Of a stretch of DNA of 45,028 nt, positions 25,564 to 34,109 are shown in pieces; the first letter of the stretch is position 1, and each line of letters begins with the position of its first letter. The DNA is from a virus. The stretch lies in IMG/VR virus record IMGVR_UViG_3300042691_014397, positions 1 through 45,028 of that record. One strand, given 5' to 3'. A program made the position numbers and the translations under genes. The notes under the pieces are model-generated. The model was not told the DNA's origin and did no database searches. It saw only the letters and a list, made by a program, of their open reading frames with translations.

Positions 25564-26097
25564 TTATTTCGGTGTAATTGCATCAGCTACTTTTTGTGCA
25601 ATATTACCCCATGTCTTGCCAGTTTCATCAATTAACTGTTTCGTAGCTTCTTGTACTCCGAACGGGTCATAGATGTCAATCTTCTTCGGTTTCTTTTCCT
25701 CTGGAACAAAACGTTCAAGGAAGATTTTCAACATACCATTAGTAAGTTCTGCATTTTTTACTTCTACTGTATCAGCAACATTAAATTTACGAGTGAAAGC
25801 ACGATTAGCAATACCCTTATGAAGATAGTCACCTTCTTCTGATTCTGAACTACCAGTAATAGTTAGAACACTGTCTTTCATTTCAATATCTAGATTGTGC
25901 TTTCCAAACCCTGCAACAGCCATTTCAATAATATAATGTTCATCATCAATTTTTTTCACATTGTATGGCGGATATGCAGGAATTTTTGGTAGATATTCAT
26001 TAGCTTCCGCAATTCGCTGAAACATATTATCAAACCCTACAAGATACTTTGATAGTAGTGGGTCTGCATGAAAAGCACGGAATGGATCGTTTGTCAT
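25564..26097 (-). CDS. Small heat-shock protein, Hsp20/IbpA family, 177 aa
   Basis: Alpha-crystallin-type chaperone that holds unfolding proteins. N-terminal region MTNDPFRAFHADPLL, core from YPPYNVKKIDDEHYIIEMAV (about 42-61), and the conserved NGMLKIFLERFVPEE near the end of the core. An IxI-type anchor (KKIDIYD) and a 25-residue helical tail follow. Hsp20 genes are recurrent in T4-like phages. It sits between pmoC and the endolysin, with its own TTGACT/TATTAT promoter and a strong terminator. Confidence 0.92.
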   Translation of the reverse strand: MTNDPFRAFHADPLLSKYLVGFDNMFQRIAEANEYLPKIPAYPPYNVKKIDDEHYIIEMAVAGFGKHNLDIEMKDSVLTITGSSESEEGDYLHKGIANRAFTRKFNVADTVEVKNAELTNGMLKIFLERFVPEEKKPKKIDIYDPFGVQEATKQLIDETGKTWGNIAQKVADAITPK

Positions 26098-26202: not shown

Positions 26203-26964
26203 TTATTCTGTTAGTAGTGCTACGCCTTCACGCCCAACAAGAGCATGAACACGACCAAGGATTTGGAGAACAACACCAAATACACCAAGTGCCATCCAGC
26301 CAAAGAACACGAAGCCCCAATGTAGTGGTGCTACGAATAGTTCTTCCATGAACCAGAATGTATGACCCCATTCGTTAAGACCAACGTTTGGAATAATCAT
26401 AAATGGTCCAATAGCAACAATCAGAAATGCTAGACTGTATCCATGTGAAAAGTATGGAATACGAGTGCGAGCATAAAAAAATGCGCCAACTGCGATGATT
26501 GAGTAGATTGGATAGCTCATGTAGAATTCAATAATATGACTTGGAGTAAAGTCAGTATCACGAATTACTGTCATGTGCCAAGTTCCATCCTGTTCAGTGA
26601 AGAAGGATGCGCCCCAATAAATGGCAACGGCATACACAACTAGCCACTGAACTAAAGTAACTAAACGACGCATTTCCTCACGAGGAGCAACGGCGTCAAT
26701 ATTTCGGTCCCTTGTCTTCCAAAGATAACCAGCAAGTCCTAGTCCTGACACTAGTTCTAGTGGAATCTCTGTCCAGAGAATAGACATCCAATATGTCTGA
26801 AACTCTGGTGCAAATGAATCAAGACCGGCCCTCCAGCCATAGACCTGTTCATAAATGCGAACGATTAGATAGAAGACGTTAAGTAGACCAAGACCGATCC
26901 ACATACCACGTAGATCAACAACCTCTGCCTTTTCAGCAGTTACTGTAGTAGTTACTGTACTCAT
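26203..26964 (-). CDS. pmoC: Particulate methane monooxygenase subunit C (PmoC)
   Basis: Membrane subunit of the copper enzyme that oxidises methane to methanol. 253 aa, full length, about six hydrophobic spans. The metal site D-x3-H-x12-H is intact (D126, H130, H143 in DGTWH...DFTPSH; equivalent to D156/H160/H173 of M. capsulatus). The second site N197, H201, H215 (NEWGH...APLH) is intact too. Other hallmarks are LDSFAPEFQTYWM and EELFVAPLHWGF. It resembles type II (alphaproteobacterial) PmoC from memory. pmoA and pmoB are absent here, so the product would have to join host subunits. GGAG precedes the ATG inside a small hairpin. It has superimposed sigma70 and late promoters. Confidence 0.97.
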   Translation of the reverse strand: MSTVTTTVTAEKAEVVDLRGMWIGLGLLNVFYLIVRIYEQVYGWRAGLDSFAPEFQTYWMSILWTEIPLELVSGLGLAGYLWKTRDRNIDAVAPREEMRRLVTLVQWLVVYAVAIYWGASFFTEQDGTWHMTVIRDTDFTPSHIIEFYMSYPIYSIIAVGAFFYARTRIPYFSHGYSLAFLIVAIGPFMIIPNVGLNEWGHTFWFMEELFVAPLHWGFVFFGWMALGVFGVVLQILGRVHALVGREGVALLTE

Positions 26965-27872: not shown

Positions 27873-28105
27873 TTTTTCCTTGTCAAATAGATGAACACTT
27901 TCACATTACCAACATATCTATCATATATATCTCTCAGAGACAAATACTTTTTATTTAGAGATAACCTTAATATATGGTTCTCTTCTTCAATTGCCTCAAT
28001 AGTATATGCTGCTTTACGAGGAACAGATGGACAATGAACATTATTATGTTTCTCTACCCAATCTGCTAACTCGTGTAACTGTTGTATTAATTCGCTATGA
28101 TTCAT
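27860..28105 (-). CDS. Hypothetical protein coupled to the repeat-gene array, 81 aa
   Basis: Starts MNHSELIQQLHELADWVEKH, with PRKAAYTIEAIEEENHILR in the middle and a basic C-terminus. The 'L..LA.wve.h........kAA..IE.Le.EN..L' layout is common in small phage proteins. Its ATG lies within the last codons of the first repeat gene (ATGAATCATAG), so it is probably translated with the array. Confidence 0.65.
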   Translation of the reverse strand: MNHSELIQQLHELADWVEKHNNVHCPSVPRKAAYTIEAIEEENHILRLSLNKKYLSLRDIYDRYVGNVKVFIYLTRKKWKI

Positions 28106-28358
28106 TTAGTTGATCCCAGACTTGATCCCTGACTTGATCCCTAACTTGATCCCAGACTTGAACCCGGACTTTATTACTGACTTGATCCCTGACTTGATCC
28201 CAGACTTGATTCCTGACTTGATCCCAGACTTGATTCCTGACTTTAATACTGACTTGATAGTGGACTTGATACAAGACTTGATCCTGGACTTGAACCCTGA
28301 CTTGATTCCAGACTTGATCACTGACTTGATTCCTGACTTGATCCTTAACACTATTCAT
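28095..28358 (-). CDS. Tetrapeptide (xQVx) repeat protein 1, 87 aa
   Basis: MNSVKDQVRNQVSDQVWNQV opens about twenty tandem four-residue repeats of the form x-Q-V-y (x mostly D/N/Y/H/R, y mostly W/R/S/Y), interrupted by VSIKV and VSNKV units. It ends DQLNES. Longest of six paralogues. A 12-base DNA unit with invariant CAAGT(C/A) underlies it. The spacing of Val every four residues suggests a regular helix or solenoid; no known family recognised. Confidence 0.65.
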   Translation of the reverse strand: MNSVKDQVRNQVSDQVWNQVRVQVQDQVLYQVHYQVSIKVRNQVWDQVRNQVWDQVRDQVSNKVRVQVWDQVRDQVRDQVWDQLNES

Positions 28359-28554
28359 TTTCTAGGTCTTCTTTTAGTTGATCCCAGACTTGATCAAAGA
28401 CTTGATTCCAGACTTGATCCCAGACTTGAACCCGGACTTTATTACTGACTTGATCCCTGACTTGATAGTAGACTTGATCAAAGACTTGATTCCAGACTTG
28501 ATCCCAGACTTGATCCCAGACTTGATCCCAGACTTGATACTTAACACTATTCAT
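28351..28554 (-). CDS. Tetrapeptide repeat protein 2, 67 aa
   Basis: Same architecture as its neighbours: MNSVKYQVWDQVWDQVWDQV, an SNKVRVQVWDQV landmark, and the tail KEDLENE. Overlaps the neighbouring copies by 8 bases on each side. The landmark block is identical to that of copy 3, pointing to recent duplication. Confidence 0.65.
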   Translation of the reverse strand: MNSVKYQVWDQVWDQVWDQVWNQVFDQVYYQVRDQVSNKVRVQVWDQVWNQVFDQVWDQLKEDLENE

Positions 28555-28750
28555 TTTCTATGTCTTCTTTTAGTTGATCCAAGACTTGATACAAGACTTG
28601 ATCCCAGACTTGATCAAAGACTTGATTCCAGACTTGATCCCAGACTTGAACCCGGACTTTATTACTGACTTGATAGTGGACTTGATTCCAGACTTGATAG
28701 TAGACTTGACCCAAGACTTGATCACAGACTTGTTCTTTAACACTATTCAT
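28547..28750 (-). CDS. Tetrapeptide repeat protein 3, 67 aa
   Basis: Begins MNSVKEQVCDQVLGQVYYQV, carries the SNKVRVQVWDQVWNQVFDQV block and ends LDQLKEDIENE. Contains one Cys in a repeat position. Confidence 0.65.
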   Translation of the reverse strand: MNSVKEQVCDQVLGQVYYQVWNQVHYQVSNKVRVQVWDQVWNQVFDQVWDQVLYQVLDQLKEDIENE

Positions 28751-28934
28751 TTTCTAGGTCTTCTTTTAGTTGATCACAGACTTGATCCCGGACTTTATTA
28801 CTGACTTGATCCCAGACTTGATTCCTGACTCGATGCAAGACTTGATTACTGACTTGATAGTAGACTCGATAGTGGACTTGATACATGATTTGATCACAGA
28901 CTTGTTTCCAGACTTGATACTTAACACTATTCAT
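28743..28934 (-). CDS. Tetrapeptide repeat protein 4, 63 aa
   Basis: Begins MNSVKYQVWKQVCDQIMYQV. More irregular x and y positions than other copies (H-R, Y-R, L-H). Landmark SNKVRDQV near the end, tail KEDLENE. Confidence 0.65.
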   Translation of the reverse strand: MNSVKYQVWKQVCDQIMYQVHYRVYYQVSNQVLHRVRNQVWDQVSNKVRDQVCDQLKEDLENE

Positions 28935-29118
28935 TTTCTAGGTCTTCATTTAGTTGATCCCAGATTTGACCCCTGACTTGATTCCTGACTTGATAGTGGA
29001 CTTGATTCCTGACTTGATACAAGACTTGATGCAAGACTTGACCCCTGACTTGATTCCTGACTTGATACAATACTTGATTACTGACTTGATCTTGGACTTG
29101 TTCTTTAACACTATTCAT
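28927..29118 (-). CDS. Tetrapeptide repeat protein 5, 63 aa
   Basis: Begins MNSVKEQVQDQVSNQVLYQV. Lacks the SNKV landmark found in the others and ends RGQIWDQLNEDLENE. Otherwise the same length and junctions. Confidence 0.65.
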   Translation of the reverse strand: MNSVKEQVQDQVSNQVLYQVRNQVRGQVLHQVLYQVRNQVHYQVRNQVRGQIWDQLNEDLENE

Positions 29119-29314
29119 TTTCTATGTCTTCTTTTAGTTGATCCAAGACTTGATACAAGACTTGATCCCGGACTTTATTACTGACTTGACCCCAGACTTG
29201 ACCCCTGACTTGATCCAAGACTTGATTACTGACTTGATAGTGGACTTGATTCCAGACTTGATAGTAGACTTGATCCCAGACTTGATAGTAGACTTGTTCT
29301 TTAACACTATTCAT
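29111..29314 (-). CDS. Tetrapeptide repeat protein 6, first gene of the array, 67 aa
   Basis: Begins MNSVKEQVYYQVWDQVYYQV, has the SNKVRDQV landmark, ends LDQLKEDIENE. The first translated copy; an AAGG/GGAT ribosome site lies upstream. It follows the terminator at 29346, but no convincing promoter could be seen between, so expression may come from read-through. Confidence 0.65.
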   Translation of the reverse strand: MNSVKEQVYYQVWDQVYYQVWNQVHYQVSNQVLDQVRGQVWGQVSNKVRDQVLYQVLDQLKEDIENE

Positions 29315-29339: not shown

Positions 29340-29369
29340 AATTAAAAAAGGCTCTTGCAAGAGCCTTTT
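29340..29369 (-). terminator. Rho-independent terminator upstream of the repeat array
   Basis: A perfect 24-base palindrome (AAAAGGCTCT-TGCA-AGAGCCTTTT core) followed on the minus strand by further T residues. Ends the DUF6745-type gene's transcript. Confidence 0.85.
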
Positions 29370-29380
29370 ATTTTGTGTTC

Positions 29381-30247
29381 TCATGTTCTCACTTCAAGTT
29401 CTCGCAACAAATTAGGATCAATATCGAACGTCCAAGCATTCGCTTCTAGTGCTGTATTGATATCAAGAGGAACTGGAATAGCAAATTCACGGCCGGTTCC
29501 ACAAAGAACTTTCAGAAACCTTTCCTTACCAACATCAGGAATTTCAACATCGACCAATGTTCCAATGTGAGGGTCGTAATCCGAATCAACAACGGTAGCA
29601 TTCAATTCTCGGATAATCCTATCCCAACCGAGAATTTCACAGGCTGCACGTCGCTGCTCCATATTCTCCCATTTGAGAGCAATCTGAGGTGTTAGTGCGC
29701 TATTCTTATTTTCAATCCATTCCTTCGGAATTCTGACACCATGCCAAGAATAGACCGAAAATCCATCACAATAACGGATAGAAGGTCCATTCTCTGAATG
29801 TAGTCTATCCTGATCATCAAACTTTATAAATTCAGGACGATCCTGGAATACAACACAGTCATCATACACAGACAACCATCCGCAATGATTGGCCAACTCA
29901 ACAAGACCATCCAACTTGTGTATGCATTCCACTTTTAGTTCATTCCGAATGAACTGATAATACGATAGCCAATAACTATCAGAATTACCATAGATCATGT
30001 TGTTAAAAATTGCTCTAGCATCCATTGACGGATCAATTTCCTTGATCAGACGGATAGCATCAATCGGACTTTTAGCCACAAAGAATTTAGTTGGATGTGG
30101 TAAACCTACTTTTTCGTATGCTAAACATACGGATTTTTTAGCATTTTCGAAATCAACAGGACCAGTGGTCAAACCAATTTTTTTCCACTTTTCAACATAA
30201 ACCGGAAACAACGCTTTCTGTTCAGGTGTCAGGTTTTCAATAACCAT
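29381..30247 (-). CDS. DUF6745-type protein, 288 aa
   Basis: Residues about 145-190 read LHSENGPSIRYCDGFSVYSW and then HGVRIPKEWIENK. A later ENMEQRRAACEILGWDRII is the 'E.N.EvRR...e..G.d..l' element of the DUF6745 family as I remember it (found in cyanobacteria, actinobacteria and phages; function unknown). The N-terminal half is helical. It is paired with the adjacent 116-residue gene, a combination that I recall recurs in phages. Confidence 0.75.
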   Translation of the reverse strand: MVIENLTPEQKALFPVYVEKWKKIGLTTGPVDFENAKKSVCLAYEKVGLPHPTKFFVAKSPIDAIRLIKEIDPSMDARAIFNNMIYGNSDSYWLSYYQFIRNELKVECIHKLDGLVELANHCGWLSVYDDCVVFQDRPEFIKFDDQDRLHSENGPSIRYCDGFSVYSWHGVRIPKEWIENKNSALTPQIALKWENMEQRRAACEILGWDRIIRELNATVVDSDYDPHIGTLVDVEIPDVGKERFLKVLCGTGREFAIPVPLDINTALEANAWTFDIDPNLLRELEVRT

Positions 30248-30271: not shown

Positions 30272-30622
30272 TTAGTCCTGAGCTTTCCGCCAACCTTCGG
30301 AAGTCCACTCTCTCTGCCGTTTTACAACATAATCGCCCGGCTGAACCAAAATGGATTCATGTGTGTCATAGGTTCTCAAATGTTCTATTTCAGTTTCATG
30401 ATTAACTGAAAGGAAAAGCTCAAAGATATCTTTGTCGCTTAGTCCTTCTGGCTTGTATGCTAGGACATTAGCAGCATCCATAACATGATTGTGTCCTGTT
30501 TCTGAATGTGCAATAACATATTTTCCGTCTTCGGAATCGAATGGAACAATATTCTCTGGGAGTTTATTAATCCGAATGATTACGAAGTCACCTTGGGCTG
30601 CCATCTTATTGAAATGTTTCAT
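30272..30622 (-). CDS. Conserved partner of the DUF6745 gene, 116 aa
   Basis: Begins MKHFNKMAAQGDFVIIRINK. It then has GKYVIAHSETGHNHVMDA and ends DTHESILVQPGDYVVKRQRE-WTSEGWRKAQD. The 'AQGDv...r...P.....GkyivAHSETGHhHv...R.YDTHepi.l.pG.yevrRQREyTpeGWR.v.D' pattern is a recognisable family of unknown function. Start chosen seven bases after AAGG; an ATG six bases earlier is also possible. A strong sigma70 promoter lies upstream. Confidence 0.75.
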   Translation of the reverse strand: MKHFNKMAAQGDFVIIRINKLPENIVPFDSEDGKYVIAHSETGHNHVMDAANVLAYKPEGLSDKDIFELFLSVNHETEIEHLRTYDTHESILVQPGDYVVKRQREWTSEGWRKAQD

Positions 30623-30655
30623 ATTCATGCCTTTCTTTCTGCTTCCAGTATGTAT

Positions 30656-32125: not shown

Positions 32126-32275
32126 TCATTGTTTCATAACAAAGTTTTGTGCTTCTTCTTCGGTATGGTAAGCAACTACAAACACCCATCCACCAGCAGA
32201 ACCAAAGTCTCGTTGATAAACGCCCCAAGCACGATTGTTTATCTTTTCAACTTTGAACAATGGTATATGTGTCAC
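32126..32275 (-). CDS. Hypothetical protein with GTG start, 49 aa
   Basis: Reads MTHIPLFKVEKINNRAWGVY and then QRDFGSAGGWVFVVAYHTEEEA. Beta-type small protein resembling 'W.vy.rd....w..v.f.TeeEA' phage proteins. The GTG overlaps the stop of the acyl-CoA dehydrogenase as GTGA, with GAAGG upstream, so it is probably translated with that enzyme. Confidence 0.5.
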   Translation of the reverse strand: MTHIPLFKVEKINNRAWGVYQRDFGSAGGWVFVVAYHTEEEAQNFVMKQ

Positions 32276-33963
32276 AGGTTCGCCTTCATCATCGTCTCAC
32301 TTCCAAAGCGCATACGCTTCAATAGCATACTTGTTTCTGGTAGAATACGGTTCATAAAGTATTCTGCGGTGTTGTGTCTATCCTTATCGTCAGTAGCAAG
32401 ACAAATCTTTATATGTGCCATACCAAGCAACACCAGTCCAAACATCTTCATATAATCATACGAAGCACCACCCGCATCATTAGGATTCTTCAAACCATTT
32501 TCTGCTAACCATTCAGTTGCTTGCTTTAGTTCATTCAATCCTACTGTTACTGGCTGGACAATATGATTGATGCCTTTATCATAAGAACTGGTCAAGAATG
32601 TTGCACTGTCCTTGAAGAACCGTGTAATAGCACGACCCATATTCTTTGGCAACTTACGACCAACCAAGTCTAGTGCCTGAATACCATTAGCACCTTCATA
32701 TACCATGGCAATACGAGCATCACGGACAATCTGCTCCATGCCATTGTCACGAACGTAACCATGGCCACCCCATACTTGCTGCATCTTGATAGCATTCTCA
32801 ACACCATAATCAGTAATAACACCTTTAAGAACAGGAGTCATTAGACCAAGACGATCCTGCGCTTCATCCGATTGATCGTCAACAAGCATTGCAGCTTCTA
32901 GAATAAGTAACCTACTAGCTTCGTTGATGCATTTAACATCAAGGAGCATACGGCGAACGTCAGGATGCAATATAATAGGAACAGTGCCACTATCACGATG
33001 AACCATAGAAGTTCCTTGCTTGCGTTCTTTAGCATATTCCAAAGCATTCTGATAAGCCAACTCCGATTGTGATAGACCTTGTACCGCACATCCAAGTCTT
33101 AGTTCATTCATCATAACAAACATGGCATTTAGACCACGGCATCTTTCACCAACAAGAATGCCAATTGCGTTATCAAAAAACATCTGGCAAGTTGGTGAAC
33201 CATGAATACCCATTTTATCTTCAATAGAACCACAAGAGACATTATTACGAATCTTCTTGTCGTCGTTCATCCAAAACTTAGGCACAGCAAACAAACTAAT
33301 ACCTTTTACACCTTCTGGATCACCTTCAACTCTTGCAAGAACAAGATGTAGAATGTTATCAGTCAAATCATGTTCACCACCAGTAATAAAAATCTTTTGA
33401 CCAGTGATTCTATAACCACCAGCAGCGTCATCTTGAATTGCTTTGGTCTTCAACAATCCAAGATCAGTTCCGCAATGTGGTTCTGTCAAACACATTGTTC
33501 CTGTCCATTCACCAGTCACTAATTTAGGAATGAACTCTGCTTTCTGATATTCTGAACCAGATACTAATAGGGTCTGTATAGCTGCACGAGTAATGCCAGG
33601 ATACAAAGAGAAAGCCATGCAAGACGAGGATACATATTCGTTGGCAGCAACCGCAAGTGTAAACGGTAAACCCTGTCCACCAAACCGTTCAGGAATTGAT
33701 AAACCAATCCATCCTCCGTCTCTAAACTTTTCCCATGGGTCATGGAAACAAACAGGAATATATATTTCAGGATAACTAGAATCTCCTACAGTATTGTGCC
33801 AATACTGACAACCGTCTTCATCACCTTCCTGATTAACAGGAGCAATAACTTCTTCACATAGTTTTGCTGCTTCATTTAGAATAGGTTCTGTTAGTTCATT
33901 ATCAAACTTTAGAACATCACGAAGAAGAAATGTTGTTGACTCTACTGGTGCTGTGTATTTCAT
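32272..33963 (-). CDS. Acyl-CoA dehydrogenase, DmdC/FadE-like with extra C-terminal domain, 563 aa
   Basis: FAD enzyme that introduces the alpha,beta double bond in acyl-CoA thioesters. N-terminal motif MKYTAPVESTTFLLRDVL, FAD/substrate loop CLTEPHCGTDLG (158-169), FITGGEHDL (192-200), QVWGGHGYVRDNG (396-408) and the catalytic base E423 in MVYEGANGIQALDLVGRK. Length and motifs match the about 590-residue family that includes 3-methylmercaptopropionyl-CoA dehydrogenase. The exact substrate cannot be told. Intact. Start chosen at ATG after TTGGAG; a TTG four codons earlier is less likely. It is embedded among small phage genes with ATGA/GTGA overlaps on both sides, so it belongs to the phage. 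Confidence 0.93.
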   Translation of the reverse strand: MKYTAPVESTTFLLRDVLKFDNELTEPILNEAAKLCEEVIAPVNQEGDEDGCQYWHNTVGDSSYPEIYIPVCFHDPWEKFRDGGWIGLSIPERFGGQGLPFTLAVAANEYVSSSCMAFSLYPGITRAAIQTLLVSGSEYQKAEFIPKLVTGEWTGTMCLTEPHCGTDLGLLKTKAIQDDAAGGYRITGQKIFITGGEHDLTDNILHLVLARVEGDPEGVKGISLFAVPKFWMNDDKKIRNNVSCGSIEDKMGIHGSPTCQMFFDNAIGILVGERCRGLNAMFVMMNELRLGCAVQGLSQSELAYQNALEYAKERKQGTSMVHRDSGTVPIILHPDVRRMLLDVKCINEASRLLILEAAMLVDDQSDEAQDRLGLMTPVLKGVITDYGVENAIKMQQVWGGHGYVRDNGMEQIVRDARIAMVYEGANGIQALDLVGRKLPKNMGRAITRFFKDSATFLTSSYDKGINHIVQPVTVGLNELKQATEWLAENGLKNPNDAGGASYDYMKMFGLVLLGMAHIKICLATDDKDRHNTAEYFMNRILPETSMLLKRMRFGSETMMKANL

Positions 33964-34109
33964 TTTGTTCTCCAATTTCTCTGGAAATTATTTGCACGAA
34001 TAACTCTCCATCTCATAGGCAATGATCTAGTCCATGCCCATTTCCAAACATGTTTAGACATCACCTTATATGGATGGCGTGGCCACTCAAGATGTTTATA
34101 CCTATGCAT
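33960..34109 (-). CDS. Arg/Trp-rich basic mini-protein, 49 aa
   Basis: Reads MHRYKHLEWPRHPYKVMSKH then VWKWAWTRSLPMRWR and a basic end. Seven Trp and ten Arg in 49 residues. Starts on the TAATG stop of the upstream gene, ends in an ATGA overlap with the acyl-CoA dehydrogenase start. Function unknown; a leader-like or nucleic-acid/membrane-binding peptide is conceivable. Confidence 0.5.
   Translation of the reverse strand: MHRYKHLEWPRHPYKVMSKHVWKWAWTRSLPMRWRVIRANNFQRNWRTK

Follow-up and report, generated by a model that had tools for sequence, protein, structure and literature searches.

Short, strictly periodic repeats are known from pentapeptide-repeat proteins, which are made of A(D/N)LXX units. 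Periscope proteins are long surface proteins whose repeats are folded domains. PMC9704523 describes periscope proteins as bacterial surface proteins with repeat-number variation, in which the repeat copy number changes by recombination. A third point of comparison is the family DUF6745 (PF20530), found in many viral contigs and in bacteria, some members of which carry a block of tetrapeptide repeats (tetrads) within the protein; a Deinococcus DUF6745 protein (L248) likewise combines the DUF6745 core with a repeat region.

The phage locus described here shares its tetrads and its lineages with the internal-block DUF6745 proteins and adjoins a DUF6745 gene, but its repeat is distributed over six separate coupled genes outside the DUF6745 ORF. 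The Deinococcus protein differs in having LRR instead of tetrads, in being cellular and in that no mini-gene array was seen with it. Compared with periscope proteins, the changes in this locus involve whole mini-genes of tetrads. The DUF6745 tetrads xANL and xANI resemble the A-N-L-X of pentapeptide repeats, whereas the repeat of this locus has a period of 4 rather than 5, and AF2 gives a helix for one of its proteins. The initial annotation knew of no described system with this layout; this holds for the open-access literature (subscription papers were outside the scope), where no paper mentioning DUF6745 or the tetrad motif was found, but the array appears to be a detached part of the wider DUF6745 family, not an isolated invention.

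Throughout, "the window" denotes the whole stretch of DNA analysed. This 45-kb virus record from IMG/VR encodes DNA polymerase, UvsX, helicase and primase, and also contains pmoC at 26203-26964 (AmoC Pfam match, 7.5e-109), HSP20 at 25564-26097 and acyl-CoA dehydrogenase at 32272-33975. This gene content agrees with that of the pmoC-phages (PMC7674155), and the window is a fragment of a phage of this kind, with a methanotroph as its likely host. A megablast search against named phages gave just a 2% match. The features of the locus are as follows.

30272..30628, minus strand: PHROG_27831-family partner of DUF6745, 118 aa, His-rich; conserved neighbour, upstream of the array
29381..30247, minus strand: DUF6745 protein without internal repeat block, 288 aa; PF20530 E=3.8e-30, 105.2 bits (cut-off 27); directly upstream of the array
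29346..29369, no strand assigned: perfect, terminator-like palindrome, flanked by a T-run on either side and located between the DUF6745 gene and the array; T6 tract on the minus strand
29111..29314, minus strand: tetrad mini-gene 1 of 6, 67 aa; transcribed first; AGAAGG Shine-Dalgarno sequence 7 nt 5' of the ATG
28927..29118, minus strand: tetrad mini-gene 2 of 6, 63 aa; overlaps mini-gene 1 by ATGAATAG
28743..28934, minus strand: tetrad mini-gene 3 of 6, 63 aa
28547..28750, minus strand: tetrad mini-gene 4 of 6, 67 aa; its first part contributes to the hybrid gene of contig L036
28351..28554, minus strand: tetrad mini-gene 5 of 6, 67 aa; its last part contributes to the L036 hybrid gene
28095..28358, minus strand: tetrad mini-gene 6 of 6, 87 aa; without the RBS-encoding tail; predicted single long alpha helix
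27860..28105, minus strand: non-repeat gene, 81 aa; 11-nt overlap with the last mini-gene

The six tandem, translationally coupled genes noticed in the initial annotation were borne out as minus-strand ORFs running from 29314 to 28095 and consisting of pure xxQV tetrads. Its 12-bp unit was also recovered, with TRF scores of 478-1183 at periods 12, 184 and 196, far from chance. All 94 tetrads of the six mini-proteins lie in one register, with no frameshift, and the common head supplies the first of a protein's tetrads, MNSV (xxSV). The overlap said to be the same at every junction is an 8-nt ATGAATAG at the five internal junctions, while at the sixth junction the last mini-gene overlaps the 27860-28105 gene by the 11-nt ATGAATCATAG. 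Similarly, the near-identical tail is present in five proteins as KEDLENE, NEDLENE or KEDIENE, but the last, 87-aa protein ends in LNES. The tail is encoded by AAAGAAGACCTAGAAAATGAATAG, in which AGAAGA resembles a Shine-Dalgarno sequence and precedes the following ATG by about 8 nt. Only the last QV gene, behind which there is no further QV gene, lacks this tail. Its conservation is therefore attributed largely to its service as a ribosome-binding site for the next gene, and that of head and tail together to the repeat register and translational coupling. The 11-nt overlap agrees with the proposed coupling of the 27860 gene to the array; in the neighbour survey this gene was not met again beside DUF6745 in other lineages, and it is probably incidental.

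Within the array, variation is concentrated in nucleotides 1-4 of the unit (entropy 1.3-1.6 bits) and nucleotides 5-12 are almost fixed, including the silent sites at positions 6, 9 and 12 (0.27, 0.00 and 0.49 bits), from which recent homogenisation follows. Taken alone, constancy inside the array reflects homogenisation and not protein selection, and it is other lineages that supply the protein-level evidence. Across them the QV pair is kept in differing codons (CAA or CAG with GTC, GTT, GTA or GTG), each array being near-homogeneous. The first residue of the tetrads is for the most part W, R, G, M, S or Y, and the second D, N, A, S or G.

This homogenisation could be expected of a minisatellite, selfish or neutral, that grows by slippage and recombination of a 12-bp unit without stops in most frames and has ORFs as by-products; the repeat block is indeed also open in a second sense frame and in antisense frames. 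Such an origin is nevertheless very unlikely in view of 94 tetrads with zero frameshifts, overlapping starts and stops with Shine-Dalgarno-encoding tails, the use of different codons for QV across lineages, where it is also fused in frame to DUF6745, the repeated linkage to DUF6745, and the adherence of alternative dipeptides to one tetrad pattern. Arrays of mini-genes in which QV is replaced were observed at L233:6189-9939 (xNAT tetrads) and L202:7483-8989 (xxRV tetrads).

Searches with the mini-proteins gave no match to PF20530, and tblastn with one of them against phages gave no matches. Pfam and NCBIfam hits of the mini-proteins to DUF4816, Cas2, trigger factor and GvpQ (E from 1e-4 to 1) were below cut-off and were dismissed as low-complexity matches, and QV pattern matches in unrelated ORFs were discounted as simple repeats, since they consist of a single unit copied exactly (QVLAQVLA etc.).

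The initial annotation had not taken in the neighbouring DUF6745 gene, which lies beyond the positions it gave. Searches based on DUF6745 revealed homologues carrying the same tetrads internally, as ORFs of 380-580 aa with E-values down to 1e-122. The internal block occupies one fixed site, after the SPxxA helix and before the YGxxDAxWLxFY helix, and its fixed pair differs by lineage, being QV, QL, SL, SV, AV, NL, NI or AT. The mini-proteins are composed of in-register x-x-[QNSA]-[VLIT] tetrads, the pattern by which this segment, which is not a named family, is recognised. In L015-type phages the ORF of the first mini-gene starts at the DUF6745 stop. Homology of the mini-proteins to the DUF6745 internal repeat is thus well supported at the level of sequence. 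In a Robiginitomaculum MAG contig (L154:2-2249), two DUF6745 ORFs lie one after the other and carry long inserts that are not repeats.

The distribution of the two arrangements was analysed on DUF6745 loci pooled by DUF6745 sequence alone, without regard to repeats, and clustered into 76 non-redundant groups; a set of 30 divergent DUF6745 proteins was too diverse for collection scans, and a closer subset was used instead. Each group was scored for an internal block (5 of 8 tetrads) and for same-strand mini-genes within 5 kb, both thresholds being set by the authors. The internal block alone was present in 33 clusters and separate mini-genes alone in 24, none had both, and 19 had neither (Fisher p=2.6e-8); some of these 19 have cut flanks, one (L202) in fact carries the xxRV mini-genes, and short internal blocks (L208, L215) were counted as absent.

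On the DUF6745-core tree the separate state is polyphyletic and requires 10 changes, the starred branches forcing at least 6, and a single origin in one clade is rejected (p-AU 7e-44). The locus with xNAT mini-genes (L233) is nested in the internal-AT clade (100/98), and L210 and L212, with separate QV mini-genes, group with L224 and L227, which have internal QL blocks (98/96). The mini-gene state is accordingly reconstructed as having arisen several times next to DUF6745. A phylogeny-aware paired test found 0 same and about 3 opposite pairs (p about 0.25), which is in the right direction with too few informative pairs.

The mini-proteins could instead be derived from the DUF6745 repeat and now be independent, as a self-assembling helical scaffold, decoy or toxin-like peptides, their proximity to DUF6745 being historical. 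Consistent with this, arrays at times occur in records without detectable DUF6745: among 14 loci with QV tetrads and no DUF6745 nearby, the parent record encodes DUF6745 elsewhere in five and has none detectable in nine, most of which are short, one being 103 kb. In addition, the protein at L114:1191-2387 (minus strand), which by eye looks like a macro-domain protein, has an internal QV tetrad block with no DUF6745 in its 25.6-kb record, suggesting that tetrads are not exclusive to DUF6745. The terminator-like palindrome, which splits the DUF6745 gene from the array in the window and also counts against the reading favoured below, points the same way, as does the stand-alone helix modelled by AF2. 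The complete cis/trans exclusivity argues against independence, as do the repeated independent splits beside DUF6745, in one case with the lineage's own dipeptide (AT), and we regard it as a serious but rather unlikely alternative.

The AF2 model of the 87-aa window protein is one helix (pLDDT 92.8, pTM 0.41). Since AF2 tends to give helices for low-complexity sequence, this prediction, suggested by the initial annotation, is weak evidence on the fold. For DUF6745, pLDDT exceeds 90 along most of the modelled core but is mostly 44-55 in the repeat; a Foldseek search of this model against the PDB gave nothing at E<=0.001, and PDB sequence matches fell mainly on the repeat region of the profile used. 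A beta-solenoid, equivalent to a pentapeptide repeat minus one residue, was considered for the NI, NL and AT variants, but AF2 gives a helix for the window protein. Membership of the pentapeptide-repeat family was rejected on the period of 4 throughout and the lack of a Pfam pentapeptide match, and a left-handed heptad coiled coil (heptad a/d) was ruled out by the strict period of the 94 tetrads.

The PHROG_27831-type protein is the sole family recurring widely beside DUF6745 in the neighbour survey. It was found near 143 of 161 DUF6745 ORFs, and near 118 of the 124 with room upstream, and the pair ranges from Ma-LMM01 gp175/gp174 to Streptomyces and Deinococcus. An alignment of nine diverse members has eight invariant columns, three of them His, and a cupin-like metal site might be guessed at. 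No Pfam or NCBIfam model scored above cut-off for this protein, and no solved relative was found.

At L247 and L248, DUF6745 and its partner adjoin STM4011-4015 genes (two radical SAM enzymes, a hydrolase, STM4014 and STM4015), a linkage seen in Streptomyces fungicidicus and Deinococcus psychrotolerans, on Streptomyces and Deinococcus plasmids. It could be taken to mean that the repeats are substrates of a modifying pathway, either RiPP-like precursors or cross-linked repeats. We give this little credence, as the DUF6745 proteins linked to STM4011-4015 lack tetrads, the scan of window proteins identified no radical SAM gene, and beside DUF6745 only the partner recurs widely. No RiPP modifying enzyme was identified among the window genes scanned, and no reverse transcriptase indicating a DGR among the scanned proteins of the window, which is a fragment.

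Comparison of related genomes for copy number and unit order confirmed that the number and content of mini-genes differ among near-identical phages, through in-frame unequal crossovers, as expected of the "modular, recombining repeat-protein cassette" originally proposed. Five contigs (L171-L175) look like one phage population, with long flanks 97.9-99.99% identical and different mini-gene content on either side of DUF6745. In L175, one flank of which has 99.99% identity over 7.8 kb, a block of 25 residues shared by two mini-genes is where they have merged into a single intact ORF, and the region is 110 nt shorter as a result, and L172 has 146 extra nt and one additional mini-gene. L036, 98.2% identical to the window, carries a hybrid gene built from those at 28547 and 28351, joined in 77 nt of common sequence, and a copy of the 28095 gene identical to that of the window. 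L009 and L166 represent the same phage as the window, with an identical array. Since these rearrangements are read from contigs assembled from metagenomes, a number of which stop within the array, assembly error is possible, more so for L036, which is one of them.

We lean towards the view that the six mini-genes are a detached and multiplied DUF6745 repeat segment, acting in trans with DUF6745 as interchangeable binding modules. The repeat segment would be needed for DUF6745 function and supplied either in cis or in trans; free repeats would pair with the block-less DUF6745 core, and perhaps also with the PHROG_27831-type protein. One core could then be served by many variants, giving interchangeable complexes that differ in their exposed x residues and whose role may be to bind a variable target belonging to the host or to a competitor. 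We infer the physical complex, its binding role and the nature of its target. The common 12-bp register, head and RBS tail would let in-register crossovers keep the ORFs open, and for this reason the repertoire may change quickly. Multiplication, rapid change and variation limited to two residues per tetrad would fit a recognition surface. The earlier idea of a binding scaffold with selectable surface residues is plausible, while for the "filament" or "decoy" roles suggested earlier no support was found. More tentatively, the DUF6745 and PHROG_27831 core completed in trans by recombining mini-proteins could form a combinatorial recognition device in phage-host or phage-phage conflict, one that evolves by in-register crossover and owes its specificity to the two variable positions of each tetrad.

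For annotation, open frames in such arrays are real candidates, not noise. The DUF6745 and PHROG_27831 module is widespread in phages, Proteobacteria, Actinobacteria, Deinococcus and cyanophages, and was previously uncharacterised. Its tetrapeptide-repeat segment, which is either part of the protein or moved out into mini-gene arrays and which is rearranged even among near-identical phages, now gives it a feature open to testing. That such parts change fast and have been outsourced repeatedly is suggestive of an arms race, and the partner of the repeats could therefore reveal a new host-phage interface.
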